Positions 1,725-33,900 of a DNA stretch of 64,000 nt are shown here, piece after piece. The notes below the pieces were generated by a model. That model saw only the letters and a program-made list of their open reading frames with translations, had not been told where the DNA came from and searched no databases. The stretch comes from a virus: positions 1-64,000 of IMG/VR virus record IMGVR_UViG_3300042924_003416, one strand, 5' to 3'. Position 1 is the first letter of the stretch. Each line of letters opens with the position of its first letter. The translations under genes and the position numbers were made by a program.

Positions 1725-1726
1725 TA

Positions 1727-1879: not shown

Positions 1880-1881
1880 TT

Positions 1882-2109: not shown

Positions 2110-2111
2110 TC

Positions 2112-2624: not shown

Positions 2625-2641
2625 TTTAAATTATATTTATT

Positions 2642-3178
2642 ATGAAAAAGTGTATGTCAGGATGTGGAGGTAAAATGCAAAAAGGTGGCAAAGTTTCTCC
2701 TGTTAAGAAAATGCAAAAAGGTGGTGTAACTAAAGGTCGTTGGGAATTTAATAAAGATGGTAGTCTTAAAACATTTGAATCTGAAAGAGAAAAGAATAAA
2801 GGAACGGGTCTTAAAACAAACGATAAATATAAAAAAATACAAGAGGATATTGAAAAAAGAACTGGAAAAAAATCTTCTTTAAAGTATCAAAAGGGTGGTA
2901 TTGCAAAACAAGAAATTGTTGGTATGCCTGGATACAATGCAAGAACTGATACCATGAAAAAGGGTGGTTCAGCTAAAAAGTTTGCAGCACTGGCACCTCC
3001 ATATGACAAAGCAACCTATGCAGATAAAATTGTTGGTGCAAAGAAAAAAGCTAAATTTGGTGCATCTGTTCCAGTACAACATTCTCCATCTCCAGGTAGA
3101 GTTAGATCTTCTTCTGGTGTAGGTACAGTACCTGTAGGGGCACGTAAACAAATGGGTGGTTCAACTAAAAGAAAATAG
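2642..3178 (+). CDS. Lysine-rich protein with repeated QKGG tags
   Basis: A 178-residue highly basic protein made mostly of short tags. It has CMSGCGGKMQKGGK near the N-terminus, KKMQKGG at about 22-28, YQKGGIAK at about 82-89, TMKKGGSAKKFAALAPPYDK at about 104-123, and QMGGSTKRK at the C-terminus. The KKFAALAPPYDKxTxADKIxGAKKKAK pattern is familiar from small proteins of environmental phages but has no known function. The N-terminal CxxxCGG could bind metal. The gene lies 17 bases after its neighbour and ends in a TAGTCATGG junction. It is the richest copy of the x-x-G-G tag among the small proteins and could serve as a heavily modified or cleaved packaged protein. That is an inference from the tags and neighbours. 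Confidence 0.75.
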   Translation: MKKCMSGCGGKMQKGGKVSPVKKMQKGGVTKGRWEFNKDGSLKTFESEREKNKGTGLKTNDKYKKIQEDIEKRTGKKSSLKYQKGGIAKQEIVGMPGYNARTDTMKKGGSAKKFAALAPPYDKATYADKIVGAKKKAKFGASVPVQHSPSPGRVRSSSGVGTVPVGARKQMGGSTKRK

Positions 3179-3180
3179 TC

Positions 3181-3327
3181 ATGGCAGAAAAGAAGGATAA
3201 GAAGTGGATACAAAAAGCAGTTAACCCTAAACATAAAGGTTTCTGTACTCCAATGTCTAAACCTACTTGTACTCCTAAAAGAGCAGCTCTTGCTAGAACA
3301 TTTAAAAAAATGGCTAAAAATAAATAA
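3181..3327 (+). CDS. 48-residue basic phage protein with GFCTPMSKPTCTP motif
   Basis: This short gene fits exactly between the TAG at 3176-3178 and the next ATG at 3329. It encodes 48 residues with KKWIQKAVNPKHKGFCTPM, then KPTCTPKRAALARTFKK. The GFCTPMxKxTCTPRRxALARxFKK pattern is one I recognise from many tailed phages of aquatic environments, where it is annotated as hypothetical. Two Cys and one His may form a small metal site. It belongs to the lysine-rich cluster and starts in a TAGTCATGG junction. Confidence 0.8.
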   Translation: MAEKKDKKWIQKAVNPKHKGFCTPMSKPTCTPKRAALARTFKKMAKNK

Positions 3328-3328
3328 C

Positions 3329-3847
3329 ATGAAAAAGACAAATAAAGTTCATCCAATAACTGCATTTAGAAAAGCTAATGAATCTAGACAAGCTAAAGTA
3401 AAAAAGTCTATTAAGAAAGCTCAGGATGGTATTCAAGTACCTTATGCTTATGCACCAGCTGCAAAAACTTCTTATTGGTTTGATAACCCAAACAAAAGAG
3501 CAGCATATGATGCAGGAACTAGAGAATCAGCAGCAAGGATAAGAGATAATAACAATGATGAGAATGCTGAAAGAGAATATAAAAGATTAGCAGATAGTTA
3601 TTCACCAAATGGTCCTAACTTAGATTTACCAAATGAGATGAAAGCTTTAAATCAAAAGTATCCATACTATGAAGGTTTTGAAGAAAAACCTTTTTTAGGA
3701 GGTAAAAACAATAAAGGTTGGGATCAAGTAAGAAAAGATAAACCAATTAAAGATAAAAGCTATAAACAAATGGATCCCAAATCTGAATATATGGGAGAAC
3801 CTGAATGGAAAAAGAAAGGTGGATCTGTAAGAAGAAAAAAGAAGTAA
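3329..3847 (+). CDS. Lysine-rich protein with KKAQDG motif and C-terminal KKGG tag
   Basis: A TTG at 3290 would overlap the previous gene by 38 bases. The ATG at 3329, one base after that gene's stop, is the better start and gives 172 residues. The basic N-terminus contains the recurrent motif as IKKAQDG at residues 28-34. This is followed by a Tyr/Asn/Arg-rich middle (YAYAPAAKTSYWFDNPNKRA at about 38-57) and a C-terminal KKKGGSVRRKKK. The design of basic leader, KAQxG, body and GG tag matches the N-termini of the large cargo proteins downstream. I do not recognise the body. It may be a small packaged protein sharing a sorting or cleavage signal with the large ones. Confidence 0.75.
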   Translation: MKKTNKVHPITAFRKANESRQAKVKKSIKKAQDGIQVPYAYAPAAKTSYWFDNPNKRAAYDAGTRESAARIRDNNNDENAEREYKRLADSYSPNGPNLDLPNEMKALNQKYPYYEGFEEKPFLGGKNNKGWDQVRKDKPIKDKSYKQMDPKSEYMGEPEWKKKGGSVRRKKK

Positions 3848-15932: not shown

Positions 15933-18900
15933 ATGGCAAAAGATCAAGGTTTACAAGATACGTCTAAGATTATTACTAATTCTTTTACTAAAGGATTGAA
16001 TAAAGATTCTGATCCTTCATTTGTACAAGAAGGAATGTGGACACATGCAATCAATGTAGTTAACAATACTATTGAAGGTGACGTAGGTACACTATCTAAT
16101 GAAACATCAAATATTCTGTGTGCTCAAGCTGGTAAAACAATGCCTCCAATAGCAACTCATAAATATATCATTGGAGCTATTTATTTGTACTCAGATAAAT
16201 GGATAATTCTTACAGCTGGTCATTCTACTACAGGTCAAAGAATTACTTCTGAAATAGGTCTTCTTGAAGAAGATGTATGTAGATATAGAGAGATTGTGCA
16301 AGCTCCTTGTTTAAACTTTGATAAAAGATATATTATATCAGGAGCTTCCAGAGAAAAAGAAGATTGTTCATGGCAAGTATATTGGTCAGATGGATTTAAT
16401 CCTGATAGAACTTTAAATATTGGAGATCCACAAACATGGCCTACATTAGACTATCAATGGTTAGGTGGTTCTGATATGAACTATTATTCTAATGGAACCG
16501 TTATTGATTTTCTTTGGCCAGGTGTTTCTTGGAATGAAAGAGTAACAGTACCTGATCCATGTGAATTTATTTCATATGTAAACTCACTAGATTGTGATGC
16601 AACAAGACTTGCTAGACTAATGAACACACCATGTCTTAATTTAATTTTAGGGCAATCTGGAGGTACACTTGCTAATGGAACTTATTTTGCACTTATTGCA
16701 TATACAATAAAAGGTCAAAGAGTAACAGATTATTTTTCACAAAGTAACTATCAATTTATTTATACAGTAAATGATTTAGAAGGTTCATTAACATTAGAAG
16801 TTAATGCGGATAGTGAAAACTTTGATGAATTTGTTTTAGTACTTGTTGAAGCAACAAATCAACAAACTGTTGCAACACAAATGGGTTTTTATTCTACTAA
16901 TACTACTATAATTGCTATAGATCAAATTAATCCTAGTAATGTAAAAATACCATTAGAACAATTACCAATTCAAACTCCTGTATTTGAAACATCTGATCAA
17001 ATGACTGATGTTAATGGTTATCTTTTAAGAGTTGGTCCAAAGTCTAAATTTGATTTTAACTATCAACCACTTGCAAATATGATTAAAGCAAGATGGGCTA
17101 GTGTTGAATATCCTGCTGATTATTATATCAATGGTGGTAATAAAACTAATTATCTTAGAGATGAGGTTTATACTTTTTATATAAGATGGGTATACAACAC
17201 AGGAGATAAGTCTGCTTCATATCATATACCAGGTAGAGCACCAAGAAACTTTCAAATTCCAGGAGGTTCCATATTACCTGAAAATGCAGATTTTACTATA
17301 GTTCATGATAAAAATGAATTAGCAACTGATGACAAAGTATTTGAAGTATATAACACAGCTACTCAGTTATCATATCCAACTCTAGTACCAAATGCTACAC
17401 AAAATCCATTAGGTCAATGGGTTATGGATGATGGTGGTGTATTACTTGCTGTTGGAGAAATGGGTTATTGGCAATCTACAGAAAAGTATCCTGACAATAG
17501 ACCTGACATATGGAATCCAAGTACATATTGTTGGACTGGTTTTGATGGTAAAAGTGGTGCATATGATCTTTGTGGAAAAAATATTAGGCATCATAAATTT
17601 CCAGAAAATTTTATTGCTAATGATAATTCTACAAGTGCATTACATTTTAGACCTAATCCCAATCCTGCAACATCAGGTAGTGAGTTTAGTATAAGATTAA
17701 TGGGTGTATATTTTGAAAATATAATAATACCTAAAGACAATGATGGAAATGATATCCCAGGTATTGTAGGTTATGAAATTTTAAGAGGATCTAGAGAAGG
17801 TAATAAGACTATTATTGCTAAAGGAATGGTTAACAACTTTAGAACATTTAAATTAAGAGGATCATTAGCACAAAACAGAACAGGGTTATATGCTAACTAT
17901 CCTTATAATACTATTAAACCAATTGGACATAGTAATACCCCATCGAATCATAATTACCAATACAATGATCCTTATATAAAAAATGATGATGCAAATAATG
18001 ATGTAGTAAATCAAGATATACCTACAGATATATTTACATTCCATTCTCCGGATACAATGTTCAGGACTCCGTTTCTTTCTACTACAGAGTTTAAATTATA
18101 TGGAACATTAAGTGGTTATGCAGATATGGCATTCCAAGAACCTAATGGTCATCCTAAATGGAAGTTGCTTTCTAACTATGTTGTTCTTCCAATGATTATT
18201 GCAGGTGTAGCTGAAGCTATCATATCTATGTTAGGTAAAAGAACAGTAAATGAACCAATTATAAATTCATATACAGAACAACTTAGAGGAACAGGTGGTA
18301 CTGGTGCAATTAATCTTAGTTTCGGTCCAACTGGTTCAGGAACATTTGCAGGAGGTAATAGTACACCTGGAACAGGAGGACAAATTGAGGATTCTCTTCC
18401 ACAAAATAATGCTCTAATTGGTATAAGTAATCAAATAACTACTTATAATAGTTTTATAAACTCATATTATTCTAGTGGTAATGCATTAACTGATGCACTT
18501 ACAGCTGTTGCATTTGGATATAGTAATACAGCATACAGTAATCAAATGAGTAGTTTAATAGGTGTTGTAAATGGTTTTTCAGAAGATGCTGGTATACCAA
18601 ATTTATTATCACTTGCTGGAACAATTGAGTTTCCTAAATGGGCATACTTAGATCCTTTTACTAGATCTTTAGGAGCATTAAATCAACTTGCATTTTACTT
18701 TTCAGAAGGAGCAGATATAACATTAAAAGTTTTTTATGCTCTTACACCATACAGACAATATGGATTACAATTGTTGTCACATGGTTTTTATAGTAATATG
18801 ACTAGAATATCTTCTACAGAACTATCAAGATTTAAAATTGAGACTAGTTTTTATATGAGAGATAATATTCAAGATGTACCAAAGTATCAAGATGCTACAT

Positions 18901-21488
18901 CACTTACATATTATAACTATAGTATTAATAATCTTAAACGATCAGATGCAGTAGTAGTTAGAACAAAATCAGGACCTTATTATAATCTAGCATTTCCTAA
19001 TGGAATAAATACAGGACCTCATTTAATAACTTCTGGTTTTCAAGATAAATCATTAGTAACACTTGGAACTGTTGTACAAAATAACTCAGACCCTGCTTTT
19101 CTTAGTAGTACTAATCTTCCTGACTTTGATAATAATGATAAAGTTAAACCATTTAGTTTACAAATTGCAAGTCATTATGGTGGATTAAAAGGTAGAGTTA
19201 GAAATCAATATGGTCAATTAGGAACTGAATTTCAAATTGCCATTAGTCCATGTGAACAGCAATTACCTAAGATGTCAGTAACAGATTGGACATGTCCTAC
19301 AGATAATATACTTTATACTTTTAAAACAATAAAATCAACTCCTTTATTTTTTGGAGGGGATACTTATATAAATCGTTACACTGAAAAAAATAACATGATG
19401 TTCTTTTATGATTGGTTATATGGACAACCTGATGGTTTTGAATATAACTATTATTTAAGAAGCATGATACCTCAAGCTAGATTTAAAGTAAATAGTATAA
19501 ACTATGATGTAAGTGATTTAGCTGAACTATTTAATTTTAGTGCACCTGCTGTTCCAGGTACAGGAGCTTTTCCTGGTAGATTTTATAATCTAGATTATTT
19601 TGTACCATTTTCACTTGGTCTTAGAAAATATAATTATACAAATGATACCAAAGGTGGTATTCCAGGTATATTTCCTTTTACAAGTTTTTTTGAACAAGAA
19701 AAAGGTTTGTGGTCAGTAAGAGAAGCATATTTTTATTTAGCAAATTCAGGTATAAGAGATTTCTTTGTTGAATCTGAAGTACTTGTAGACTTTAGAAAAC
19801 AAAGTACTAGAGAAGGTGGTAAACATTATGATCCGTATAGATACACAGATTATCCTGCTATGTTTGATATGAATCCAAACATCATGGGTAGATTAAGTGA
19901 ATATCTATATGATTATTCTTTAAGTGTATCTAAATTATATAATCAATATTTTTCTTCTGGAAATCTTCAATCAAGATATTATGATCCTAAAGTAGCTAAG
20001 TTATGTTACAAGTATTATCCTGATAGAATTATTTATTCACTACCTCAACAAGATGAGGCAATAAAAGATAGTTGGTTTATTTACTTAATTAATAATTATA
20101 AAGAATTTAAAGGCCAAATCTCTGGAGTTAAAGCAATTAATAAAAGTGGTTTATTTATAACATTTAAAAATGAAAGCCCATTAATGTATCAGGGTGTTGA
20201 TACTCTTGAAACAGATCTAAATACTAAGATTACAATTGGAGATGGTGGTTTATTTTCACAACCACAACAAGCTGTTACAAATGCAGACAAAGCATATGAG
20301 TATGGTTCTTCACAAAATAGATTATCAGTTATTTCTACTCCTGTAGGAATATTCTATATGTCTCAAAATCAAGGACGTGTATTTACTTATGGACAAGGAT
20401 TACAAGAAATATCTCAAGCAGGATTAAAATGGTGGTTTATATTATACATGCCATACAAACTTACTCAAGATTTTCCTGACTACCCATGGCAAGATAATCC
20501 AGTAGCAGGTATTGGTTGTCAATCAATTTATGATAGTTCAAGTTCAATACTTTATTTTACAAAAAAAGATTTTAAACTTAAAGACCAATATAAAAATAGA
20601 GTTACTTATAGACCTATTAATGCAGATGGTTCTGGTGATGACTTTATTTTAGATAATAATCAAAATGCAAGATATAATTTAGGTGATCCATTTTTATTTG
20701 AAGATTCATCATGGACATTAAGCTATGACCCTAAACAACAATATTGGATTAGTTTTCATGACTGGCATCCTGATTTAGTTATACCTACTAAAGATATTTT
20801 CTTAACCAGTAAAAAAGATAGCATATGGAAACATAACTTTATCTGTGATGGTTTTTGTAATTTCTATGGGCAGCAATACGGATTTGAAATTGAGTTTCCA
20901 ATTGTAACTGGTCAGTCTGTTATGACTACTAGATCATTTGAATATATACTTGAAGCTTACAGAAGAAAAGGAAATAGTTGTATAGATCAACATCATGTAC
21001 TTGACTATAATTTTGATAAAGCTGTAGTATATAATTCAGAACAAGTTTCCGGATATCTTAATTTAAATTTGTATCCTAAGAACAATATAAATGAATCATT
21101 ACAATACCCTAGGTTAGGTGCTAACTTAGCTTCTTATGATATTCTTTTCTCTAAAGAAGAACAAAAATATAGATTTAATCAATTCTGGGATATAACAAAA
21201 GATAGAGATGAGTTTCCAATAGGTTCTGATTATCCACCTACTGGACCAGTAATACCTGGTACTACAATTCTACAAGGTAATTATTCTTCAGAAAATACAT
21301 GGATTACATCTTCAGATGGATATACTAGAATTCTTAATCCAGCTAACATGGATTATAATAAGTCAGAATTTCAAAGAAAGAAATTTAGGCATTACTTAAA
21401 TTTCTTAACTTTAAGACGTGAACAATGTAATGATGTAAACATGATAGTTAAAATGTCAAATAGTAAAAATCAATTTTCCCCTAGGTGA
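15933..21488 (+). CDS. Very large tail protein of the stabilization or muzzle type
   Basis: A 1851-residue protein. The N-terminus reads ITNSFTKGLNKDSDPSFVQE and continues with GMWTHAINVVNNTIEGDVGT, the typical opening of the large tail proteins of crAss-like phages that correspond to podovirus tail-stabilization proteins and form the distal tail or muzzle. The body is dominated by aromatic- and Asn-rich beta segments, consistent with a propeller or beta-helical tail part. It includes a Gly/Thr-rich stretch at about 785-820 (GTGGTGAINLSFGPTGSGTF) next to a hydrophobic helix (VVLPMIIAGVAEAIISMLGK at about 752-771). It would lie outside the capsid and contact the host surface. Its TGA stop overlaps the next ATG by one base. 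The family assignment is from the N-terminal pattern, size and gene order. Confidence 0.75.
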   Translation: MAKDQGLQDTSKIITNSFTKGLNKDSDPSFVQEGMWTHAINVVNNTIEGDVGTLSNETSNILCAQAGKTMPPIATHKYIIGAIYLYSDKWIILTAGHSTTGQRITSEIGLLEEDVCRYREIVQAPCLNFDKRYIISGASREKEDCSWQVYWSDGFNPDRTLNIGDPQTWPTLDYQWLGGSDMNYYSNGTVIDFLWPGVSWNERVTVPDPCEFISYVNSLDCDATRLARLMNTPCLNLILGQSGGTLANGTYFALIAYTIKGQRVTDYFSQSNYQFIYTVNDLEGSLTLEVNADSENFDEFVLVLVEATNQQTVATQMGFYSTNTTIIAIDQINPSNVKIPLEQLPIQTPVFETSDQMTDVNGYLLRVGPKSKFDFNYQPLANMIKARWASVEYPADYYINGGNKTNYLRDEVYTFYIRWVYNTGDKSASYHIPGRAPRNFQIPGGSILPENADFTIVHDKNELATDDKVFEVYNTATQLSYPTLVPNATQNPLGQWVMDDGGVLLAVGEMGYWQSTEKYPDNRPDIWNPSTYCWTGFDGKSGAYDLCGKNIRHHKFPENFIANDNSTSALHFRPNPNPATSGSEFSIRLMGVYFENIIIPKDNDGNDIPGIVGYEILRGSREGNKTIIAKGMVNNFRTFKLRGSLAQNRTGLYANYPYNTIKPIGHSNTPSNHNYQYNDPYIKNDDANNDVVNQDIPTDIFTFHSPDTMFRTPFLSTTEFKLYGTLSGYADMAFQEPNGHPKWKLLSNYVVLPMIIAGVAEAIISMLGKRTVNEPIINSYTEQLRGTGGTGAINLSFGPTGSGTFAGGNSTPGTGGQIEDSLPQNNALIGISNQITTYNSFINSYYSSGNALTDALTAVAFGYSNTAYSNQMSSLIGVVNGFSEDAGIPNLLSLAGTIEFPKWAYLDPFTRSLGALNQLAFYFSEGADITLKVFYALTPYRQYGLQLLSHGFYSNMTRISSTELSRFKIETSFYMRDNIQDVPKYQDATSLTYYNYSINNLKRSDAVVVRTKSGPYYNLAFPNGINTGPHLITSGFQDKSLVTLGTVVQNNSDPAFLSSTNLPDFDNNDKVKPFSLQIASHYGGLKGRVRNQYGQLGTEFQIAISPCEQQLPKMSVTDWTCPTDNILYTFKTIKSTPLFFGGDTYINRYTEKNNMMFFYDWLYGQPDGFEYNYYLRSMIPQARFKVNSINYDVSDLAELFNFSAPAVPGTGAFPGRFYNLDYFVPFSLGLRKYNYTNDTKGGIPGIFPFTSFFEQEKGLWSVREAYFYLANSGIRDFFVESEVLVDFRKQSTREGGKHYDPYRYTDYPAMFDMNPNIMGRLSEYLYDYSLSVSKLYNQYFSSGNLQSRYYDPKVAKLCYKYYPDRIIYSLPQQDEAIKDSWFIYLINNYKEFKGQISGVKAINKSGLFITFKNESPLMYQGVDTLETDLNTKITIGDGGLFSQPQQAVTNADKAYEYGSSQNRLSVISTPVGIFYMSQNQGRVFTYGQGLQEISQAGLKWWFILYMPYKLTQDFPDYPWQDNPVAGIGCQSIYDSSSSILYFTKKDFKLKDQYKNRVTYRPINADGSGDDFILDNNQNARYNLGDPFLFEDSSWTLSYDPKQQYWISFHDWHPDLVIPTKDIFLTSKKDSIWKHNFICDGFCNFYGQQYGFEIEFPIVTGQSVMTTRSFEYILEAYRRKGNSCIDQHHVLDYNFDKAVVYNSEQVSGYLNLNLYPKNNINESLQYPRLGANLASYDILFSKEEQKYRFNQFWDITKDRDEFPIGSDYPPTGPVIPGTTILQGNYSSENTWITSSDGYTRILNPANMDYNKSEFQRKKFRHYLNFLTLRREQCNDVNMIVKMSNSKNQFSPR

Positions 21489-24343
21489 TGTATAATAAAA
21501 AAGTACTTATAGATTCTCTTAAGAAGTTAGGAAGTGCAAAAGCTCCAACTCAAAAGAAAGATATTATTGTGGGTTCAAATAATCCTGCACAGATGTTATC
21601 TATGAAAAAAGGAGGTTCTTCTGTAGATAAGAAGTTGAGTGTAAAAAAATCTAATATACAAGGTAAAGGTTTATTTATTGATCAACCCATTAGAAAAGGA
21701 GAAATCATTGGTTTAGCTCATCTTAATAATCAAGCTACTCCTGTAGTAGGTAAATACCATAATCACTCAGAAGATAGTCCTACTGCAGTAAACATATCTA
21801 AAGGAAATAAAAGATATTTAGTAGCTGCTAGAGATTTACCTGCCGGTACTGAAATTACTACTAACTATAGATTACAACCTGAGTTAGAACAACCTGAAGA
21901 CTTTATGCAAAAAGGAGGAATGACTCCTCAGAAAGATGGTTATAGAACTTATTCACCATTTAAAAATCTTCCTTTTATTGATGTAGAAACAGACACTATT
22001 GATACAGACAATATAGTATATGATTTACAATTGAGGGCTAATAATGGAGTTACTAAAAATGTACAAAAAAATACAGGCTTACATAAAATTCCAGGAGCAA
22101 CTGTTATAAGAGAAATTCCTATGGGTAGAAAAGGAGGATCTGCTCCTAAACTTCCTAAAAAGAAAAACTCTAAAGGATACTCAAGAAGTCTTGAAGCAAC
22201 AAATAGATTATTTGCAGAACATCCATTCTTTGCTCAATCAAAATCTAGAAAGAATAAAATATATGATCCTAATTCAAAGTACTTCCAATTTGGTGGTATG
22301 TTTACTGAAAAAGGAGCTAATGTATATTTTAATCCAACATACATGAATAACTTTACAGGTGGTACTAATTCATATGAAAAAAATATGCTTGGTTCATACC
22401 GTACAGGTTTTTCTCCTGTTGTTGGTATAGAAGGTTCATTAAGTAAAAGTAGAAGAGCTGATGAAGAAAAGGGAAGAGGTTGGTTATATAATGCATATGC
22501 CGGACTTAATCCTAATGCAATGAAAGAAGGTAACTATACTCCTTCTGCAGGTTTAAGTTTTGATTTTGAAAATTCACCACAAGATAGAGTCTTTAGACCT
22601 TTTGCTCAAATAGGTGCTGACTATAATCCTGATACTGGTCTTAATGCTGGAGCAACAACTGGTGCTAGATTTCCTTTTACACCTTATGGAAATAAAAGAA
22701 TTAAACCTGGATATGCAATAGGTCATTTAGATATATATGGTGGTATTAGAGGTGGTTATGGTAAAATGAAAGCTGATGGTGCAGGTCCTTCAGGAGGTTT
22801 AGCATATGGTGCAAGAGTTCATGGTAAATATATGCCTGAAAGAAAATCAGTTCTTGGTAAACTGATGGGTAAAGGTGCTTATTTTTATGGTGATGCAGGA
22901 ATACAGTTTGATCCTCAAAAAGGTCAACTAAGTCAGAAAATGAAAGATTATACTATTCCTTCTGGAGCGGTTGATTATTATGGTAATGCAGCAACAGCTA
23001 GTGGAAGTGATCAAGATTCAGGTCTTAAATTTGGTAATACTATTTATGCAAATGTTGGTGTCAAAAAAGAACTTGATGATATTAAGTTTAAAAAAGATGA
23101 CAGAGCAAGAAAAATTCAAGAGATTGAAGATAATGAAAAAAGAGCATTTCAGGAAAATGAAATAAAACAAGTAATAGAAAAACCTAAAAAAGAATGTCCT
23201 GAAGGAGAAGAAAGACATTGTGCTGATTGTCCTTGTGAACCAATAGAAAGAGTAAGTCATCCAAGATGGTTGCAAGAAGGTGGTGAGTATATTGAAACAG
23301 AACTTACTCCAGAAGAAATAGAACAGTATGCTAAAGGAGGGTATATCATAGAAGATATTTCTATACCTTCATTACCTAAAGCTCAATTGGGTAAAATTAT
23401 AAAAAGTACAAAGAATATAGTATTTCCACCAACTCCAGATCAAAAATTTCTTACTAATTATATATCAAATAATTTTGGCCCTCATGTTACTTCTCAACAT
23501 TCAGCAGATATTGCAAGAAGATTAGCAAGAGAACAATATCAACGTGCTGTACTAGATGCTCAACAGGCAGCACTGTTTAATGCAAGTAATATAGATATAT
23601 CTACACTACCTCAACAACGTGTTGCTGATTTACAAAATTTAGTTACACCAGCTATTCAAAGTAAAATAAATAAAGTTAACTTACATGAAGCAGAAGACTT
23701 ATTAAAAACTTTAGATCCAAGTGAACTTGATAAATACATTGATTACAGACCATTTAGAATTTATACACCTTCAGGTAGTTTAGCACTTCATCAAAATACA
23801 GATAATTTAAAAGATAACTTATTTTCTTTTAATGTATTTATGAATAAACCTAGAGAAGCTGGATTAGCATTTAATTATGCAAATAAGTTTTTTCCATATA
23901 AGAATCCATCAATTTTAGAAAAGAATAGTTTGAGTTTAGATTCATTTAACATGTTAGCTAACATGGGTCGTAGACCAGAATGGGATATACAATTTGATGA
24001 TATGATTGATATGAATGCTTTAGCTCGTCATAGTAAATTATTTGAAGGATTACCTTCTGTAGGTAGGATAGGTGCTGGTCATTTTGATAAAGCTACTGGT
24101 GAAGAGATGTTAAGAAGGTTAAATGCTATGATTGCTGAAAAAGGTTTTTCTGAAAAAGCAGACTGGCAATACACTCCAATTTCAGGAGATAACTTAGGTA
24201 TCCATAAATTTATGTTACCTAACTATAAAATAACTAGAAAATACAGTGAAGGTGGAGATTTTGAATATGAACTTGGAGATGAAGTAGATGAAACTACTAT
24301 GCAAGAATTAGAAAAATTAGGTTATACATTTGAACAAATATAG
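21488..24343 (+). CDS. Cargo-type protein with SET domain, beta-barrel-like region and internal LPKAQLG site
   Basis: The ATG at 21488 overlaps the previous TGA; a GTG three bases earlier is less likely. It gives 951 residues. Residues 51-129 form a compact SET domain: VKKSNIQGKGLF (G59-x-G61), then NHSEDSP (N92-H93-S94), then ARDLPAGTEITTNYR (Y127). This order and spacing match the small viral enzyme vSET, so S-adenosylmethionine-dependent lysine methylation is plausible. Residues about 275-540 alternate polar and hydrophobic residues with Gly/Tyr, as in AYAGLNPNA, AQIGADYNP, DIYGGIRGGYG and YANVGVKKEL, resembling an outer-membrane beta-barrel. A CPEGEERHCADCPC knot follows. At about 600-640 an ELTPEEIEQYAKGGYIIE segment meets LPKAQLGKI, after which a second, helical protein-like part begins. 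It looks like two joined proteins. The cargo role is inferred from context. Confidence 0.7.
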   Translation: MYNKKVLIDSLKKLGSAKAPTQKKDIIVGSNNPAQMLSMKKGGSSVDKKLSVKKSNIQGKGLFIDQPIRKGEIIGLAHLNNQATPVVGKYHNHSEDSPTAVNISKGNKRYLVAARDLPAGTEITTNYRLQPELEQPEDFMQKGGMTPQKDGYRTYSPFKNLPFIDVETDTIDTDNIVYDLQLRANNGVTKNVQKNTGLHKIPGATVIREIPMGRKGGSAPKLPKKKNSKGYSRSLEATNRLFAEHPFFAQSKSRKNKIYDPNSKYFQFGGMFTEKGANVYFNPTYMNNFTGGTNSYEKNMLGSYRTGFSPVVGIEGSLSKSRRADEEKGRGWLYNAYAGLNPNAMKEGNYTPSAGLSFDFENSPQDRVFRPFAQIGADYNPDTGLNAGATTGARFPFTPYGNKRIKPGYAIGHLDIYGGIRGGYGKMKADGAGPSGGLAYGARVHGKYMPERKSVLGKLMGKGAYFYGDAGIQFDPQKGQLSQKMKDYTIPSGAVDYYGNAATASGSDQDSGLKFGNTIYANVGVKKELDDIKFKKDDRARKIQEIEDNEKRAFQENEIKQVIEKPKKECPEGEERHCADCPCEPIERVSHPRWLQEGGEYIETELTPEEIEQYAKGGYIIEDISIPSLPKAQLGKIIKSTKNIVFPPTPDQKFLTNYISNNFGPHVTSQHSADIARRLAREQYQRAVLDAQQAALFNASNIDISTLPQQRVADLQNLVTPAIQSKINKVNLHEAEDLLKTLDPSELDKYIDYRPFRIYTPSGSLALHQNTDNLKDNLFSFNVFMNKPREAGLAFNYANKFFPYKNPSILEKNSLSLDSFNMLANMGRRPEWDIQFDDMIDMNALARHSKLFEGLPSVGRIGAGHFDKATGEEMLRRLNAMIAEKGFSEKADWQYTPISGDNLGIHKFMLPNYKITRKYSEGGDFEYELGDEVDETTMQELEKLGYTFEQI

Positions 24344-24345
24344 TC

Positions 24346-27300
24346 ATGGCTAAATATAGAATAACAAGCATTCCTGCTAATTTACCACAAGCTCAAGATG
24401 GAGGATCTTTTTGGAAAAAAAAATATAATGTTGCTAAGAGTAAAAAACTTAAAAGAAATAAAACAAATACTTCTAAAAGATCTGCAGGAAACTTTTCTAA
24501 TGAAGTAGGAGAATCTATCTCACAAGACCTACCTATGGTAGAAGTCCAAGGTGTTGATCAACCTTCTTACTGGAATCAAATGTCAAGTGATGTTGTACAA
24601 GGTATAGAATGCCCTCCAGGAAAAGAAAACTTTGAAGGAAATTGTTTAACTGAAGATGAAATTCTTAGTATTCTAGATGCTAGAACTGCAGAGATGAAAC
24701 AAAAGAATTTTGATAGACGTGTAGAACAAGGTTTTAAAAAATCAAATGTTTTTGCAGATTCAGAATATGCTTCAAAAATGTTAGGTCGTTATATTTCTGC
24801 TAGGAATCAACAAGAACAAGACTATGATAATTATGCAAATAAGTACTATGATACTTTTAAAAAATCTAAAAAAAGTGATAAAATACAACCGTTTAAAAAG
24901 TTTTCTGCAGAAGAACTAGATCAATTACAAGATGTAGTTGATCAAGAAGGTAATGTAGTTATTGATGAAACAACAGGACAACCACTGCAACAAGCTAAAA
25001 TTGATGCATTTAAAAATAACTTTTTAATTAATAAAACAAAAGATGGTTTTTATGAACTGTATCCAAAAGATATTGTTAGAGATAGAATTTTACAAAGTGG
25101 TTTTAACGAAGAACAATTTAAAAATTTTTGGGGATTAGATCCAGAACAAGTAAAGGAACAGGTAGGTGATATGATAGGTACGGCTAATGAAATCTATAAT
25201 CAAAGATTACAACAACGTATTATTAAAACAGCCATTGATAAAAATATATCTGTTGAAGATGCAATTAAAACAATACCTAAATCTGAAGGTACTCAAACTG
25301 GATTAACAAATAGATTTAAAAAATCTACTCAAAAAATAATTGATGACACTTTTGATATCTATACAAATAGTATGTTAGAGTCTATGTTGTATGATCCTGA
25401 TGTTGCAAAAAAAGATGAAGATGTATTTTATTCAGAAGATCCTAAAACAGCATGGGAAAATAAATATCATGCAGGTGATTTAAAATATATTTCTGACAAA
25501 CAAAGAAAAGGTCAAAAAGCATATGATGAAGCAATTAAAAATTTTAGTAATATAGGTAGTAGTGGTGCATCAGATGAATATTATCAAAATCAAGGTAGGT
25601 ATGATGACAGGATGGCACAACAAAGATTAAAAAATCAAGGTGTACAAAAAGCAATAAATTTATCAAGAGCTGAATCGGCAAGACAAGGAGCACAAGATAA
25701 AAAGTTTAATGATGCATTTGGTCAGTATTTAAGTAATCAAGGAACATCTTATCAAAAAGAATTATTAGGAAAAGCATTTGATAAACTTAGAGCTGACCCT
25801 AAAGCAAAAATAAATTTTTTAAGAGATATTGAAAAATATCCAGACTTGGTTATGGGGGATGTTTTTAATTTAACAGATGATGAGTCTGGTAAAACATATT
25901 CTGATTTATATTCAGAACGTCTTAATGATAGCTATATGAATAGTTTAAAGGCAAGACAAAATACATTTAAAGAAGGTAGTTATAAACCTGAACTTACAAC
26001 AGGTAATAAAATATTTGACTATCTTAGACATCCTTTTCATGCAGCATATTATGCAATGCACCCAACACAAGATATGCATGGTAATTGGAATATTGATTAT
26101 GATACAAGACTAAAGCTTGAAAAAGAAAAAGGTATAAATTTAGGTACTATGGATAAAGTACAAGGATTTAATCCTATGTCAGTTTTAAATTTGACACCAC
26201 TTCAAGCTCTTAATCCTTTTAAAATAGGTAGTAATTTAAGACAGGGATATGATAAAGGAAATTTTATAGGAGCATTAGGTGATGAAATTGTTGATATTGG
26301 TACATCAGTTGGAGCTGCAAAAGGTTTTAATGCATTATCAGGAAGTGGTTTAGGATTAACAAAGGGAGCAGGAACTTTAGTAAGTAGTATATTTAATCCC
26401 TTTAGTGATATAGGATATGCTTTAAAAGCTGGAAAAAATTTAGATAATGCAACTGATTATATTAAAAAAGGTGATTATAAAAATGCAGCTTGGGAAGGTT
26501 TAGAAGGTGGATTAAATGCTATACCACTTATAGGCTTACCAAAGTATTTAAAAGGTTTTAATAGATTTAATGATGCAACAAGTGGATTTAATTTTAATAG
26601 AACATTTAATAATGCAAATCAATTAAATTTTAATAGCCCTAACTTACTTGGAACACAACAAATACCTAAATATAATATATTGAATAAAGATGGACAACTC
26701 ATTCGTAATCAATATAAAAATGGAGGGTCTCTTCCTAAAGCACAATTAGGTAAAATAGTTAGTAGTTTAAAATTATTGGAACCTGTAGAAGTATATGGTA
26801 AACAATTTTTAAGATCACATTATAATCCTTTATCTTATCCTGTTAAACTTGCTGGTTCAAAAGTAGCAGGTTTAAGTTCAGGTGCATTTAGACAACCTGG
26901 AGAAATTGCAAAAGCATTACTTGCAAAAGAAGGTGATTTAACATACAAAGGTCAAAATACAGTTATAGTAAGACCTGGAAGTGAAATTGAAAAAATATAT
27001 ACAGAAGGTGGTAGAGATTTAGTAAAAAATTATATGTTAGGTCAGACAAAAGGATTGCAAGAATTAATGTATGATTTTGAAAAAGATCCTGGACTTAACC
27101 AAGCAATAGATTATTATGGACCATTAAAAGCATATGAATTATATTCTAAAATACCACATGGTGAAAACTTAGGTATACAAGATTTTATGAAACAGGCTTC
27201 AGGTTTTAGTTTTAATAAAGATAAAGTTATTGATGATCTTATGAGTGGGTTTGATCAAAATCTTAATATATTTGATCAATCAAAAAATACTAGATTACTT

Positions 27301-28791
27301 TTTGATTTAAAAAGAGATTTGGGTGAAGAAGCAGGTAATGCAAAATATAGTGAAATTGCAAAAGATAATTTAAAATATTTGTTTGATCAGTATGGTAATG
27401 ACGTTATACCTTTTCAAGCAAATGTAGATCCTATGCATACAAAAGATTTAATACTAAGAGGTAATCCCATAATGCCGCTAGATGATATTGGAGGTCATAT
27501 GGGATTTTTAAAAAAAGGTCCTGATGGTAATTATGATTTTACAACTAGAGATTTGTGGAGTTTTAGACCTAGTGCTTATGGTAAAAGATATGCTGGAGAT
27601 AGTACTGCAAAAGCTTTATTTAAAGATGCTCAAGTTCAGTTGATGGATACTTTTGGTAAACCATTTATTCTACATCAAACTAATCCTATTAAATTTAAAG
27701 AAGGTGGTGATTTACCAAAAGCTAAGATGGGTTGGCCTCCTGGAGGTTTTAGATCCCTAAGAAAAATTCCAACAGTATTTGGTAGAGAAGTTTACAGACC
27801 AAGCAGTACTATTTTTAACACAGGAATAAAAACAGGAAATATTCATGTTCCTAAAAAAATAGACTTTTTAAAAGAAACTGGACCAGAAATAGACGAACGT
27901 GTTAGAAGAAATTTAATATGGGATTTTGATGAGTATACTGGAGGAGATCCTGCTAACCTACCAGGAATATCAAGTTATATAGGTAGAGGTCTAGCATCTC
28001 CCACTGAATTAACAAAGTATTTAGGTGATTTTGATTTTAAACCTTTTTCAGATGGATGGCAAGTAAGAAATCAAATGATGAATGCATTTGATGGACCTCA
28101 ATGGGCAGCAGGTAAAAATGATTTTTTTACTGAATCTGAATTAATAAACCTTGTTAATCAACAAAGTGAATGGCAAAAAGCAAGAAATTCATTTGATGAT
28201 ATGTATCCTGAAAATCCTGCTATGGGAATTATGAATGCATTTAGTGGGGATAACAGTAGAGAAGAGTTATTTAGTAATCTTTACCCTAATGCATCTATGC
28301 CAAATTTTAGAAGTAAGTTTACAACACCAGAACAAGAAGCTTTATTACAACAAAATTTACCTTGGCAATATTCAGTAAGAGATAAAGGTATGCTTAATAG
28401 TTGGAAATTAAATCCTTTTCTTGCTGATACACTTAATGATAAAATTTTACCTTCATTTAAAAGACTAACAAACTTTAAAAAAGATTTAGCAGATGATAAT
28501 CATATGGTTGGAGAATATAGAGGAATGTTAGGTGTAAAATATGAAGATTGGAAAAATGCATCACCAGAACAAATTAGTAAATGGGCAAAAGAAATAAATA
28601 AAAAACTTTATAATAGAGATTTTAATCGTTATAAAAGTGATATAGAAAAACCATTTAAAGGAAGTGATGCATGGAATCAAATAACATCTCAACCAGGTTG
28701 GAAAAATAAAAATGGAGGTGTTGCTATGAAACTTACCAAAAAGGAAATAGACAAATATGTTCAAGGAGGATACATTGTAGAAGAAGAATAA
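24346..28791 (+). CDS. Large cargo-type multi-module protein
   Basis: A 1481-residue protein that starts in a TAGTCATGG junction. The basic N-terminus MAKYRITSIPANLPQAQDGG carries the recurrent motif at residues 13-19. A CPPGKENFEGNC unit lies at about 90. Residues 100-600 are charged and helical. A Gly/Ala-rich hydrophobic stretch around 620-690, with ALSGSGLGLTKGAGTLVSSI, could insert in membranes. Two further motif copies, each after a GG tag, lie at about 795 (NGGSLPKAQLGKI) and 1125 (EGGDLPKAKMGW), and each begins a new domain. The protein ends with KLTKKEIDKYVQGGYIVEEE, the same C-terminal signature that sits inside the preceding protein. I know no named domain here. The motif layout suggests three or four modules that may be separated during virion maturation. 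Confidence 0.6.
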   Translation: MAKYRITSIPANLPQAQDGGSFWKKKYNVAKSKKLKRNKTNTSKRSAGNFSNEVGESISQDLPMVEVQGVDQPSYWNQMSSDVVQGIECPPGKENFEGNCLTEDEILSILDARTAEMKQKNFDRRVEQGFKKSNVFADSEYASKMLGRYISARNQQEQDYDNYANKYYDTFKKSKKSDKIQPFKKFSAEELDQLQDVVDQEGNVVIDETTGQPLQQAKIDAFKNNFLINKTKDGFYELYPKDIVRDRILQSGFNEEQFKNFWGLDPEQVKEQVGDMIGTANEIYNQRLQQRIIKTAIDKNISVEDAIKTIPKSEGTQTGLTNRFKKSTQKIIDDTFDIYTNSMLESMLYDPDVAKKDEDVFYSEDPKTAWENKYHAGDLKYISDKQRKGQKAYDEAIKNFSNIGSSGASDEYYQNQGRYDDRMAQQRLKNQGVQKAINLSRAESARQGAQDKKFNDAFGQYLSNQGTSYQKELLGKAFDKLRADPKAKINFLRDIEKYPDLVMGDVFNLTDDESGKTYSDLYSERLNDSYMNSLKARQNTFKEGSYKPELTTGNKIFDYLRHPFHAAYYAMHPTQDMHGNWNIDYDTRLKLEKEKGINLGTMDKVQGFNPMSVLNLTPLQALNPFKIGSNLRQGYDKGNFIGALGDEIVDIGTSVGAAKGFNALSGSGLGLTKGAGTLVSSIFNPFSDIGYALKAGKNLDNATDYIKKGDYKNAAWEGLEGGLNAIPLIGLPKYLKGFNRFNDATSGFNFNRTFNNANQLNFNSPNLLGTQQIPKYNILNKDGQLIRNQYKNGGSLPKAQLGKIVSSLKLLEPVEVYGKQFLRSHYNPLSYPVKLAGSKVAGLSSGAFRQPGEIAKALLAKEGDLTYKGQNTVIVRPGSEIEKIYTEGGRDLVKNYMLGQTKGLQELMYDFEKDPGLNQAIDYYGPLKAYELYSKIPHGENLGIQDFMKQASGFSFNKDKVIDDLMSGFDQNLNIFDQSKNTRLLFDLKRDLGEEAGNAKYSEIAKDNLKYLFDQYGNDVIPFQANVDPMHTKDLILRGNPIMPLDDIGGHMGFLKKGPDGNYDFTTRDLWSFRPSAYGKRYAGDSTAKALFKDAQVQLMDTFGKPFILHQTNPIKFKEGGDLPKAKMGWPPGGFRSLRKIPTVFGREVYRPSSTIFNTGIKTGNIHVPKKIDFLKETGPEIDERVRRNLIWDFDEYTGGDPANLPGISSYIGRGLASPTELTKYLGDFDFKPFSDGWQVRNQMMNAFDGPQWAAGKNDFFTESELINLVNQQSEWQKARNSFDDMYPENPAMGIMNAFSGDNSREELFSNLYPNASMPNFRSKFTTPEQEALLQQNLPWQYSVRDKGMLNSWKLNPFLADTLNDKILPSFKRLTNFKKDLADDNHMVGEYRGMLGVKYEDWKNASPEQISKWAKEINKKLYNRDFNRYKSDIEKPFKGSDAWNQITSQPGWKNKNGGVAMKLTKKEIDKYVQGGYIVEEE

Positions 28792-28848: not shown

Positions 28849-31800
28849 ATGAAAAAATCAGTAAGAATAAGAAAAGCTCTTCCAGGTGAAAAACCTGGTT
28901 ACTATAATAAGACTGCAAAGTTTTTACAAAAAGCTCAAATGGGTATGCAAGTTGGTTCTCCAAGTATGGATCCTCAAAGATTAAATAAGGTATATGAGAA
29001 TGTATATATATCATTAAAACAGTCTACTCCTCCTGATGTAGTTTATAATGAACTTGTTACAGAATATGCTTTAGATCAGGATACTTCATTAAGTATTCTT
29101 AGAGCTGCTTTAGGTCAGTTATCTCAAGAAGGTTATTTTGATGAATCTGAATTAGAGGGTGAGAGTACATCTCAAAGTGAAGAAGAAACTCAAGAAGAAG
29201 ATACTTCTGCCCAAGAAGAACAACAAGCATCAGATGATGCAGAACAACAACAACTTGCTGAGTCATCTGAAGGTTATTATGATGATGAAGAAGCATTAAA
29301 CAATGACACATCCCATCTTGAAGATGAACAGTATGAGCAACAAGAAGCATTTAGATATGGTGGGTACTGGCAAGATGGTGGAGAAAGTGAAGAAGTATAT
29401 GATGAATCAGAGTATCAAGATGAAGAAAATTATTCTGATGAATCTGATACACGTGAAAATGTAGTTGATCAATATAATTATCCTGGACAATCAACAATGG
29501 AGAAACCTTTCTCTATAGAAGATTTAATGGCTATTACTCCAGGGATGCAAGGACAAGAAGCATTTCCAGATATATCAGCTTATTTAGGTGATTATCAACC
29601 TGTAGCAGATTCATATCAACCAGAGAATTATTTACCTCAAGCACAGTATGGTACTATTATTAAAGCTGCTAAAGCTGCTGCAGATGCACTTAAAGTAGAC
29701 CCTCCTATCTTAAGACAACCGTTTACTAACTTAAGTACTTTACGTAAGTACATACCTATTTCTACTCTTACAGGAGAAGCAGTAACTAAATTACCATTAA
29801 TTGGATCTAAACTTGCACCTAAATTAGCAACTACTTTTACTCAAAATAGAGATGAGTTGTTTAAAGTAATGCAGGGTCAGTCCCCTAAGACAGGTATATT
29901 TAGTCAAACTGGTAGTTATGCTGGTGGAGCTGATGGTAGTTTATCTGCTGATAGATTATTGTTGTATCAAGATGATGTATTTAATATTATTGATCAAATA
30001 GAAAATGGAGGACGTTCTGCTTTTCAATTTATGGATATTGATCCTGTTGCAAAAAATGATGGATTAATAAGTGGATTGTATCCATTAGATTCTAAAATTG
30101 TAAGTGGTGTTGATGATAATGGTTTTAAATTCTTTGAATTAAATAAAACATTTACTCCAGGTGAAAAATTACCATTTGGTACTTTACCTTCTAAAGCTAA
30201 AGAAGTTACATTTAAAAATAGATTCTATTATAAGACTGATGAGGCTGGTCAAGTACAAGTATTTGATTCTTTAGGTAATCCTTTATCTCAAGGTGCTCAA
30301 ACTAAATTTGAAGTTGCAAGACCTTTTGGAACAACTGTTTCAAGAACACTTACTGATCCAATACTAAGAAATTCTAATACACCATTTCCTAGTTTTAGAA
30401 CAGGATACGAAGGTGGAAGACTTACTGAAACTATGGGTGAAAAACCTATGACTTTTGCAGACATGGGTGTAAGAGGTAAGATTGGTAGAGGATTAGAAAC
30501 ATTTGGTTTTACTGGTTTAAATCTTCCTTTTAGAACAGGAGCTGATGCTATTCAAAAAGTTGACTATCCAGTATTTGGATATACTAATAAAGCTTTAGGA
30601 CCTAATGTAATAGATCCTGCTACTGAAGGATCTTATGCAAAAGATATTGCAAATGCAATGAACTATAAATATAGAGTTGGCCGTAATACATTACTTGGTC
30701 TTGGTGCTCTAGGTGCATTAGGTTATACAGGATATAATGCTTATAATAAATGTCAATGTGAAGATCCTCTTGCTCCAAACTATCAAATGAAAGATAAGTA
30801 TGATAACTGTCCTTGTGGTACTGATGTAGGTAGTAGGAGAACTTTAGATCCAACAGCTAATCCTTTTACTGAACAAGTTGATCCAAGATCTTTAACTATG
30901 CCTGATAGTATGCAATTTCTTATTCAAAAAGGAATTTATCCAAGTGCAGAAAATTATTACAGGTATCAAGATAGTAATGTTGTAAATCCAAATATGGAGA
31001 ACAGTATTCCTGCAGATGATTTTGCATATGGTGGTGCATTACCAAGAGCACAAAAAGGTCGTATTATTAAAGGTGTTGCAAAAACAATGAAAACTTTAAA
31101 AGCACAACCTACACCAAAAGGAGTAACCATACCAAAAAATATGTCTGACATTCCAATACCTAAATATAATGTAAAAGGTATGGATGCAAGAAAAGCATTT
31201 GAAGATGATTTAAGACTTGATCAAGATTTTATAGATTTTCAAAATAATGATCAATTTTTACAGTACAGTCCAGGTTTTCAAACTAACCAACAACGCTTAG
31301 ATTCTGAACCTCTTCGTGATTTCTTTAAATATGTAACTGGATATTCTGATCCTCTTGAAATAAAACAATTTTTAAATACCCCTGGTATAACAAAATATAA
31401 TAAATTTGGTGTCCCTTTTGCAACAAGAGATTTTAAAATGATGCAAACACCTTTTGAAGATCCTTTTAATCTTTTAGATGATGGTTTTAATATACCACCT
31501 TATCAAAAAGGAGGTATTTCAAAAAATCAGTTTATTAAAAAGTTTACTTCAATGTATCAAGAAGGTGGGGAAAAAGATCCAAAAGATCCTTCACTAGGTA
31601 AAGGAAAAAGGTTTGATACTCTTACTAATGATGTAGAAGCTAGAAAAGATATATTTAAAAGTAAACTTAAAAATAATTCTAATGTAGCTCTTACAGAAGA
31701 GATATATAAAAATGCTCAGAGTAATCCTCAGATTCTAAGCATGTTAATGCAAGATGGTCAAAAAGAAAATCTTGCAGAAAATGATAATATGCAAACAGCA

Positions 31801-33900
31801 CAATATGGTGGTGTTAAAGAAGATAGTATACCAAATTGGTATAGAGGTTATCAATCTATGATGACTCCTGCACAATATAAAAAACTGTACAAACAGTTAC
31901 GTAGAATGATACCTAAAGGTGTAGATATTTCAAAAGCTAATATTGCATCTAACTTTTTTGATAGGGGAACAACTTTACCACCATATGGTCATGTTATGAC
32001 ATATCCTCAATATGATGATATGATGAATAGAATGACTATGCCAATGATGATAGATCCAAATACTTTTGGATTTAGAGGTACTAGTATTCCTTCACAACTT
32101 CAAGCAGAAGATGCAGTAAATAAAAATAATCAAAAAGGTACACAATTTTTACCTGAACTATCTCCTGACTTTATTGATTCACCATTAACACCTGAATTAA
32201 AAGGTCAAGATTTTTTACAGTTTTATGAAGACTATCCAACTCAACTTCAACAAAAAGATTTTTTTCCATTTGTTGATTATCCTGCAGTTGCTGAACATGG
32301 TGGGTTTGTAGATACTGATGCTGAAGAACCTTTATATAAGTTTATATATGGTGGTGATGAACCAGAATATTATGAACAGTATGGTTTACCAGAAGCACAG
32401 TACGGTGCTGATGTTTCTGGTATTTATGACTATATTGATGGTCTTCAGAAGAATGCTAAGAATAATGATCCTGATCCTAATCCTAAAGAAAATGAAGATA
32501 AGAAAGATGATCAAGATATAATTGAATGTGGACCAGGAACAGTATGGAGTAAAACATATCAATCTTGTATTCCTAGATCTAAAGTAACATATAATCAAAG
32601 ACAAGTAAGAAGAAGTCCTGGATTCTTTAATACTATGTTACCTTGGAATGCACCATTTGGTTATGCCGGTTCATGGACAAAACAGATGTCTTTACCATAT
32701 TATTTAGGAAGTAAAGATCCTTATAAAGGTCAATTAACAGGAGCTCCTGTTGCTAGATACGTAACTAAAAAAGGTATTTTAGGTAGACCTAAAAAATGGA
32801 TAGACATTTACAATACTGGCAGCGGTTCTGGTAGCATAAATCCTATAGAGTTAGAAAAACTGATGGAACAAAACAGAAGAGGTTCCAATAGAAACATGAA
32901 TAAAAATCAGTTTAATAATCCTTCAGAAGATAGAGTAAGTGGTAGAGATCAGTTAGAAAGTGATCTTAAAAAGAGAATGGGTTATTCAGATGAAGAGTGG
33001 GAAAGCACTAGTGAAAAAGATAAGAGAAGAGAGATAAGAGCTGAGAGATATAACCAAGGTAAAGGTTTAAGATATAAGACTAATGAAGCTTATGAAAATC
33101 TTAAAGATTCTGCATTAGGTAATACTGCTAAATTTTATGGAAACATAGGTAAAAAAGTAAAAAACTTTCTTACTAGAAAAGATTATGGTGGTGCTGGTGG
33201 ATGGGATCCTTTTGCATTAGGTAGTGGATTAAGTACTGGTGTTGGTCAAAACATGTCTGCATTTGCACCTTATTCACAACAACAACAATTTGAGAATAGT
33301 TTGTTTGGTACTAAAGGTCCTTCTGCAGCTCCTAAACCACAACAGAATCCTCTTGCTAATGTTAATTTTGGTACGGGCTCTTATGCTGAGACTGCAAATA
33401 CTGGACATACATTAGGTGCACAAGGTCAAGAAATTATTCCACAAAAAGAACCAGAAGCACCTGAAAATGAATATGTAGGTGTTGAAAACAAAAGAAAAGA
33501 TATGCAAAATGTAGATCCTGAAGCAGGAGTAAATGTTACTAATGCAGCTATCAGAGGTGGTTTAGGAGTACTAAGTAGAATGCAGAATGCAGGAAGAGAA
33601 AGAAATTTCTTATTAGATACTGTTGATCCAATGAACTTATATGCATCTGCAAATGAAACTGACAGAGGTGACTGGCAAGACTTTGGTTCTAAATCTGGTA
33701 TGTTAAGATATGATCAAGAAGGACAAGACAGAAGTAGTAGAGCTACCTATGGTAATTATGCTAATGCAGCATATGGTGGATACATGCAAGAGGGTGGATT
33801 CTATGAAGAACCATACTTTGAAGAAGACGAAGAAGTATATATGACTCCAGATGAATTAGAACAATTTTTACAAGCCGGAGGACAAGTTGAATATTTATAA
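28849..33900 (+). CDS. Large cargo-type multi-module protein with acidic region and hydrophobic segment
   Basis: A 1683-residue protein. The basic N-terminus MKKSVRIRKALPG leads to KFLQKAQMGMQ, with the recurrent motif at residues 26-32. Residues about 95-215 are strongly acidic (Glu/Gln/Asp/Tyr-rich) and contain YGGYWQDGG. Motif copies start further modules at about 262 (LPQAQYGTIIKAA), 729 (LPRAQKGRIIKG) and 1180 (LPEAQYGAD), two of them preceded by YGG. A hydrophobic stretch, LLGLGALGALGYTGYNAY, at about 612-630 is followed at once by CQCEDPLAPNYQMKDKYDNC. A second Cys unit, CGPGTVWSKTYQSC, lies at about 1227. The C-terminus EVYMTPDELEQFLQAGGQVE resembles those of two other proteins here. 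It follows its own candidate promoter and is spaced eight bases from the next gene. Packaging and ejection are inferred. Confidence 0.6.
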   Translation: MKKSVRIRKALPGEKPGYYNKTAKFLQKAQMGMQVGSPSMDPQRLNKVYENVYISLKQSTPPDVVYNELVTEYALDQDTSLSILRAALGQLSQEGYFDESELEGESTSQSEEETQEEDTSAQEEQQASDDAEQQQLAESSEGYYDDEEALNNDTSHLEDEQYEQQEAFRYGGYWQDGGESEEVYDESEYQDEENYSDESDTRENVVDQYNYPGQSTMEKPFSIEDLMAITPGMQGQEAFPDISAYLGDYQPVADSYQPENYLPQAQYGTIIKAAKAAADALKVDPPILRQPFTNLSTLRKYIPISTLTGEAVTKLPLIGSKLAPKLATTFTQNRDELFKVMQGQSPKTGIFSQTGSYAGGADGSLSADRLLLYQDDVFNIIDQIENGGRSAFQFMDIDPVAKNDGLISGLYPLDSKIVSGVDDNGFKFFELNKTFTPGEKLPFGTLPSKAKEVTFKNRFYYKTDEAGQVQVFDSLGNPLSQGAQTKFEVARPFGTTVSRTLTDPILRNSNTPFPSFRTGYEGGRLTETMGEKPMTFADMGVRGKIGRGLETFGFTGLNLPFRTGADAIQKVDYPVFGYTNKALGPNVIDPATEGSYAKDIANAMNYKYRVGRNTLLGLGALGALGYTGYNAYNKCQCEDPLAPNYQMKDKYDNCPCGTDVGSRRTLDPTANPFTEQVDPRSLTMPDSMQFLIQKGIYPSAENYYRYQDSNVVNPNMENSIPADDFAYGGALPRAQKGRIIKGVAKTMKTLKAQPTPKGVTIPKNMSDIPIPKYNVKGMDARKAFEDDLRLDQDFIDFQNNDQFLQYSPGFQTNQQRLDSEPLRDFFKYVTGYSDPLEIKQFLNTPGITKYNKFGVPFATRDFKMMQTPFEDPFNLLDDGFNIPPYQKGGISKNQFIKKFTSMYQEGGEKDPKDPSLGKGKRFDTLTNDVEARKDIFKSKLKNNSNVALTEEIYKNAQSNPQILSMLMQDGQKENLAENDNMQTAQYGGVKEDSIPNWYRGYQSMMTPAQYKKLYKQLRRMIPKGVDISKANIASNFFDRGTTLPPYGHVMTYPQYDDMMNRMTMPMMIDPNTFGFRGTSIPSQLQAEDAVNKNNQKGTQFLPELSPDFIDSPLTPELKGQDFLQFYEDYPTQLQQKDFFPFVDYPAVAEHGGFVDTDAEEPLYKFIYGGDEPEYYEQYGLPEAQYGADVSGIYDYIDGLQKNAKNNDPDPNPKENEDKKDDQDIIECGPGTVWSKTYQSCIPRSKVTYNQRQVRRSPGFFNTMLPWNAPFGYAGSWTKQMSLPYYLGSKDPYKGQLTGAPVARYVTKKGILGRPKKWIDIYNTGSGSGSINPIELEKLMEQNRRGSNRNMNKNQFNNPSEDRVSGRDQLESDLKKRMGYSDEEWESTSEKDKRREIRAERYNQGKGLRYKTNEAYENLKDSALGNTAKFYGNIGKKVKNFLTRKDYGGAGGWDPFALGSGLSTGVGQNMSAFAPYSQQQQFENSLFGTKGPSAAPKPQQNPLANVNFGTGSYAETANTGHTLGAQGQEIIPQKEPEAPENEYVGVENKRKDMQNVDPEAGVNVTNAAIRGGLGVLSRMQNAGRERNFLLDTVDPMNLYASANETDRGDWQDFGSKSGMLRYDQEGQDRSSRATYGNYANAAYGGYMQEGGFYEEPYFEEDEEVYMTPDELEQFLQAGGQVEYL

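Follow-up and report, generated by a model that had tools for sequence, protein, structure and literature searches.

An insert-less SET domain as an exchangeable module in a probable virion cargo protein of a crAss-like phage

The window analyzed here, the first 64,000 nucleotides of the 85.8-kb virus record IMGVR_UViG_3300042924_003416, carries a 951-residue mosaic protein encoded directly behind a muzzle-type tail gene. A SET domain lies near its N-terminus, the only one in the record. The original prediction had placed a SET protein in a cargo-type position between the tail and polymerase genes, and the flanking genes bear this out. The features are as follows (all coordinates refer to the window).

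15933–21488, + strand: muzzle-type tail gene directly upstream, 1851 aa; matches the virion structural protein gp043 of phi17:2, and its family profile gives a collinear, weak alignment to phi-crAss001 gp44
21488–24343, + strand: 951-aa mosaic ORF with the SET domain; the A of its ATG is also the final base of the muzzle-gene stop codon (TGATG)
21488–21571, + strand: N-terminal tag MYNKKVLIDSLKKLGSAKAPTQKKDIIV, aa 1–28; in 49 of 70 distinct post-muzzle ORFs, with or without SET
21629–21907, + strand: SET domain without SET-I insert, aa 48–140 (GKG 59–61, H78, G88, N92-H93-S94, E122, Y127, ELEQP 132–136), from Pfam, PDB profile search, fold match and conservation
21926–22123, + strand: DGYR module, aa 147–212, a small beta domain after SET; together with SET it is found again in DHH-SET proteins from other phages
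22145–22297, + strand: Lys-rich SRSLEATN module, aa 220–270; in 60 of the 70 slot ORFs, 42 of them without SET
22301–23122, + strand: Gly/aromatic-rich, beta-barrel-like stretch, aa 272–545, assigned from composition; one weak relative, in locus L142
23285–23359, + strand: internal copy of the motif that ends cargo ORFs, ETELTPEEIEQYAKGGYIIEDI, aa 600–624 (profile match 1e-14); in relatives the motif is also C-terminal and at internal junctions
23372–23392, + strand: LPKAQLG motif, aa 629–635, candidate processing or packaging junction from enrichment counts in the window and relatives
23396–24247, + strand: C-terminal domain, aa 637–920; 40–42% identity to parts of ORFs in loci L016, L003, L005, L006 and L141
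24248–24340, + strand: C-terminal motif ELGDEVDETTMQELEKLGYTFEQI, aa 921–951; its profile finds 15 of the 46 slot ORFs that are complete
48113–58267, + strand: ORF of a virion-type RNA polymerase, lying further downstream and bearing the motif GGDFDIDKL; matches phi-crAss001 gp50 (36.6 bits), with the DFDxD motif in both

For the muzzle, the polymerase and two other ORFs, phmmer against the PDB was too insensitive, and direct comparison with phi-crAss001 was informative; there, bit scores are the safer guide because the E-values refer to six sequences.

With the ATG at 21488 as residue 1, GKG (59–61), NHSEDSP (92–98) and EITTNY (122–127) follow one another in order, as originally read from the translation. 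This ordered series occurred once among the window proteins and in none of 300 shuffled proteomes. Pfam PF00856 matched the full 951-aa ORF (E 5.6e-5, 23.9 bits) and, more strongly, the isolated domain (E 2.1e-7, 31.8 bits), both above the cut-off of 22.4 bits. Viral contig scans yielded 16 SET relatives at first and then 80, and all 38 relatives sampled matched PF00856 at E ≤ 0.01 (best 1.1e-13). A profile of 38 domains searched against the PDB returned vSET (1n3j) as the top chain (E 1.2e-10), followed by chains of MLL, EZH2 and SETD8. The first AlphaFold model of the domain, with block means of 83–93 pLDDT over aa 51–130, is predicted to resemble vSET most closely among PDB entries (Foldseek, 3kma, E 5.4e-5, prob 1.00, TM 0.64 by target length). 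A second model, built with 41 sequences, returned SET and PR domains all down its PDB match list; its matches among predicted viral structures included SET proteins from giant viruses and from uncultured phages. Besides vSET, many further SET domains reach prob 1.00 in the PDB fold comparisons. Residues 48–140 are thus a true SET domain. The full-ORF Pfam score, just over its cut-off, is what a chance motif match or composition artefact might give, but the profile, structure and family evidence is concordant and the shuffled proteomes lacked the motif series; the PDB profile search rules this reading out, and we give it practically no chance. The location first proposed (residues 51–129) was right and the extent too short: the conserved unit starts at residue 48 and reaches approximately residue 140 because [ED]LEQPxxF belongs to it. 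A phmmer search of the whole ORF against the PDB gave no SET match; its one weak hit, a STAGA subunit, lay away from the SET region and was rejected. Comparing 15 kb of nucleotide sequence with phage records gave no match.

The best solved relative by profile and fold is vSET, the H3K27 methyltransferase A612L of PBCV-1 (PDB 1n3j, 3kma), to which the domain had been called close. This closeness holds for overall kinship and for the shared GxG, NHS..PN, E-I-T-x2-Y and C-terminal L-x-x-P motifs, but does not extend to several features of vSET. In the 38-domain profile alignment, the phage domain has no counterpart to the SET-I insert of vSET (~21 aa), an element that contributes to the substrate groove. 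Of the vSET active-site tyrosines, which we take to be Y16, Y50, Y105 and Y109, only Y105 is kept, as phage Y127; Y16, Y50 and Y109 have no equivalents. The position of vSET L34 is occupied by an invariant histidine, H78, and the phage domain, unlike vSET, sits inside a 951-aa mosaic protein. In SET domains the classical tyrosine stands in the motif E-Y-x-G, and H78 aligns one residue past that place. The same position is His in cyanophage and pelagiphage relatives and Arg in P22-like ones.

Across 55 distinct domains, S55, I57, G61, H78, G88, N92, H93, G120, E122, Y127 and P136 are invariant, Y127 being the catalytic tyrosine of the C-terminal motif. The invariance of N92 and H93 is partly selected for, since both fall in a search pattern; this does not apply to H78, G61, E122 or Y127. 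Pairwise dN/dS was ~0.04–0.2 in 12 pairs, and the SET domain is under purifying selection. Together with the invariant GxG, N-H and Y127 and the family-specific H78, this argues for a conserved active site, which looks like one with an altered substrate channel. Because SET-I and the equivalents of Y16, Y50 and Y109 are absent, substrate recognition cannot simply be vSET-like, and with three of the four active-site tyrosines missing as well as the insert, catalysis is not assured. The same absences would fit a compact beta-clip kept as a structural, protein-binding or AdoMet-sensing cargo module without methyl transfer, as would the Pfam match of part of the domain to the SAF family, another beta-clip fold. 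Against such a module, the polar residues N92, H93, H78, E122 and Y127 stay invariant in the 55 domains, which come from quite different protein contexts; strong purifying selection and the existence of free forms of ~100 aa also speak against it, and we consider a non-catalytic SET fold distinctly unlikely. An active enzyme is the reading that we prefer: with the AdoMet-site motifs and the catalytic tyrosine kept, methyl transfer from AdoMet to lysine is the most likely activity, and with SET-I missing, the substrate would have to bind another surface or an adjacent module.

The SET ORF directly follows the muzzle-type gene in crAss-like relatives. To guard against sampling bias, loci were fetched by the muzzle alone, and in 67 of 69 the next ORF shares its first base with the end of the muzzle stop codon; the SET ORF is therefore probably translationally coupled to the muzzle gene. 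The 70 distinct ORFs in this slot (window included, some cut by contig ends) carried the MYNKKVLIDSLKKLGSAKAPTQKKDIIV-type tag in 49 cases, SRSLEATN in 60 and SET in 22, and SET and SRSLEATN occurred together in 18 of the 22. Many complete slot ORFs end in a short GYxxEx-type motif. In most slot ORFs without SET, a TRIPSxxITMxGVxYPV module adjoins the tag, and in three loci (L141, L150 and L199) this module and SET stand on one polypeptide. The slot ORF is thus a fixed, tagged carrier whose several exchangeable modules include SET.

Residues 56–212 of the window ORF, spanning most of SET and the DGYR module, share 44–47% identity with proteins of the L050/L060 group; the DGYR module was modelled with pLDDT of ~85–93 over aa 168–213, and homology between it and the TRIPS module is suggested. 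The Gly/aromatic-rich stretch at 22301–23122 resembles an outer-membrane beta-barrel, which, if real, could matter for ejection across the outer membrane; a viral contig scan with this region found zero relatives. The C-terminal motif is 53–71% identical between otherwise unlike ORFs. Its general form, ELTPEEIExYxxGGYIVEE with the variant ELGDEVDEATMxxLKKLGYTFEKI, terminates many cargo ORFs and occurs internally just before LPKAQxG. In the window it lies at 23285–23359, at 24248–24340, at the C-terminus of ORF 24346–28791 and, by eye, also at that of 28849–33900. The internal copies before LPKAQxG look as if tagged units had been fused.

LPKAQxG itself is present in the window ORFs starting at 21488, 24346 and 28849, as a variant at the N-terminus of the ORF at 33909, and in loci L135–L214. 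Seven copies were observed in the window proteins, against 0.04 expected by shuffling. In the muzzle-linked loci, the pattern [LIVM]P[KRQ][AS][QRK]xG was absent from the 205,814 aa encoded by ORFs upstream of the muzzle stop and occurred 39 times in the 131,591 aa downstream of it, 19 of the 39 within 50 aa of the first Met. We regard the motif as a candidate site for the processing or packaging of cargo proteins.

In phi-crAss001, the gene right behind the muzzle gp44 encodes cargo protein C1 (gp45), which is found in the capsid and tail (PMC10172136). Like gp45, the window ORF comes immediately after the muzzle gene and ahead of the virion polymerase genes, but gp45 is not reported to have a SET. 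Profiles of SET, the tag, the terminal motif and the modules gave no meaningful score against gp45 or gp46 of phi-crAss001. Searches with the muzzle-type gene hit virion structural proteins from Cellulophaga phages. With an E-value of 1.3e-10, the slot's TRIPS module matches the N-terminal part of phi17:2 gp041, whose annotation is virion structural protein. Judging from position, tags and the TRIPS module, the SET ORF is probably packed in the virion. Rhodoferax phage P26218 and Pseudoalteromonas phage PH1 have a SET gene directly before a gene annotated 'DNA ejection', an arrangement that we count as a putative independent link of SET with ejection. A virion association does not extend to the whole SET family, since the gene has metabolic or unrelated neighbours in cyanophage P-SSM7, in pelagiphage Kolga and in the L071 group.

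We propose that this crAss-like phage carries the SET domain as an exchangeable payload within a virion cargo protein, and that the domain probably acts as an AdoMet-dependent lysine methyltransferase on a host protein after ejection, a combined claim to which we give about an even chance. The ORF occupies a constant position immediately after the muzzle gene and is probably translated in a coupled manner; the terminal tags common to the slot would presumably serve packaging, and the modules between them, SET included, are swapped among related phages. Action would most likely fall early in infection, post-ejection, on a host protein, with co-packaged phage proteins as the main alternative target. 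We accordingly order the readings with a host-protein target first, co-packaged phage proteins second and a non-catalytic SET fold third.

The second of these readings takes up the original suggestion that lysine-rich phage proteins could be a substrate. Several small Lys-rich proteins with repeated KGG motifs are encoded at 1380–3847, upstream of the structural genes. As an assembly-time modifier, SET would methylate phage lysines, for example in these proteins or in SRSLEATN in cis, and so tune packing or ejection. The SET gene lies within the late structural block, Lys-rich KGG motifs recur in the small window proteins and in cargo ORFs alike, and the Lys-rich SRSLEATN module accompanies SET in most slot SET ORFs, all of which fits such a role. 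Against it, SRSLEATN is also found in 42 slot ORFs without SET, and records that have SET and records that lack it both contain a relative of the protein at 2642–3178, so neither shows a specific pairing with SET; by this indirect co-occurrence check, the proteins at 1380–3847 appear to have no specific or exclusive link with it. We regard an assembly-time role as rather unlikely and retain a host protein as the preferred target.

SET enzymes are associated with lysine methylation chiefly in eukaryotes, where the domain methylates histones. If packaging is true, a virion-packed phage SET would offer a direct way into the effects of crAss-like phages on their host in the first minutes of infection. 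The post-muzzle slot reads as a catalogue of swappable payloads with common tags, and these tags could lead to other early-acting phage proteins. In its most far-reaching form, which we advance tentatively and hold to be doubtful, the proposal would be that crAss-like phages deliver interchangeable enzyme modules via the tail on tagged carriers, one of them a new class of SET methyltransferase, lacking SET-I and relying on an invariant His, that methylates a host protein at the start of infection.

SET domains had been thought rare in phages; this did not hold up, as they are not very rare. They are carried by PHROGs families, cultured cyanophages, a pelagiphage and P22-like podophages. Two unlabelled PHROGs families (34170 and 28741), the P22-like podophages P26218, PH1, MW202744 and zth2-2, and cyanophages P-RSM6 and P-SSM7 likewise have the insert-less SET core; unlike in the window ORF, these are ~100-aa free proteins or are fused behind a domain related to tail-fibre PHROGs. 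The free ~100-aa form occurs in cyanophages and a pelagiphage, and the P22-like podophage domains differ from the window SET by an Arg at the H78 position. Other fusions include ~690-aa phage proteins with a DHH-like N-terminal domain followed by SET and the DGYR module (L050–L067, L071–L073), a fusion of SET to a Polbeta-like domain in L037 (below the Pfam cut-off) and, in the L074 group, SET behind an N-terminus that by eye looks like a nucleotidylyltransferase. Phage SET is already known from annotations and the unlabelled PHROGs: one phage record names vSET, and an ORF of Stenotrophomonas phage Ps15 receives an annotation-level mention (PMC9025141). An open-access literature search found no paper on SET in crAss-like phages; in the crassvirus atlas, 'set domain' means the immunoglobulin C2-set type, and that mention was discarded. 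Within open-access literature, no description appears to exist of the insert-less family, of how it is exchanged in the post-muzzle slot or of its repeated link with ejection genes.

A PADLOC search, bearing on an anti-defence role, gave no match. Cellular genomes were scanned with a closer alignment, the 38-sequence alignment being too diverse for this purpose. The matches were distant only, mostly in Rhodanobacteraceae at ~30% identity, with longer inserts in those inspected, which leaves a recent host origin of the SET domain without support. Two predicted small SET proteins of giant viruses (BFVD) match the fold closely: A0A481YSP5 of Marseillevirus LCMAC101 (100 aa; 39% identity to the window SET, rmsd 2.5 over 98 alignment columns) and A0A1V0S9N9 of Catovirus CTV1 (128 aa; 26% identity, rmsd 1.4 over 91 columns). 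They come from viruses of eukaryotes and stand outside any large phage cargo protein. An insert-less SET core that is conserved across phages and giant-virus-like bears on the minimal size of a SET methyltransferase and on the spread of the fold. The likeness to giant-virus proteins may be a trace of transfer between phages and giant viruses.
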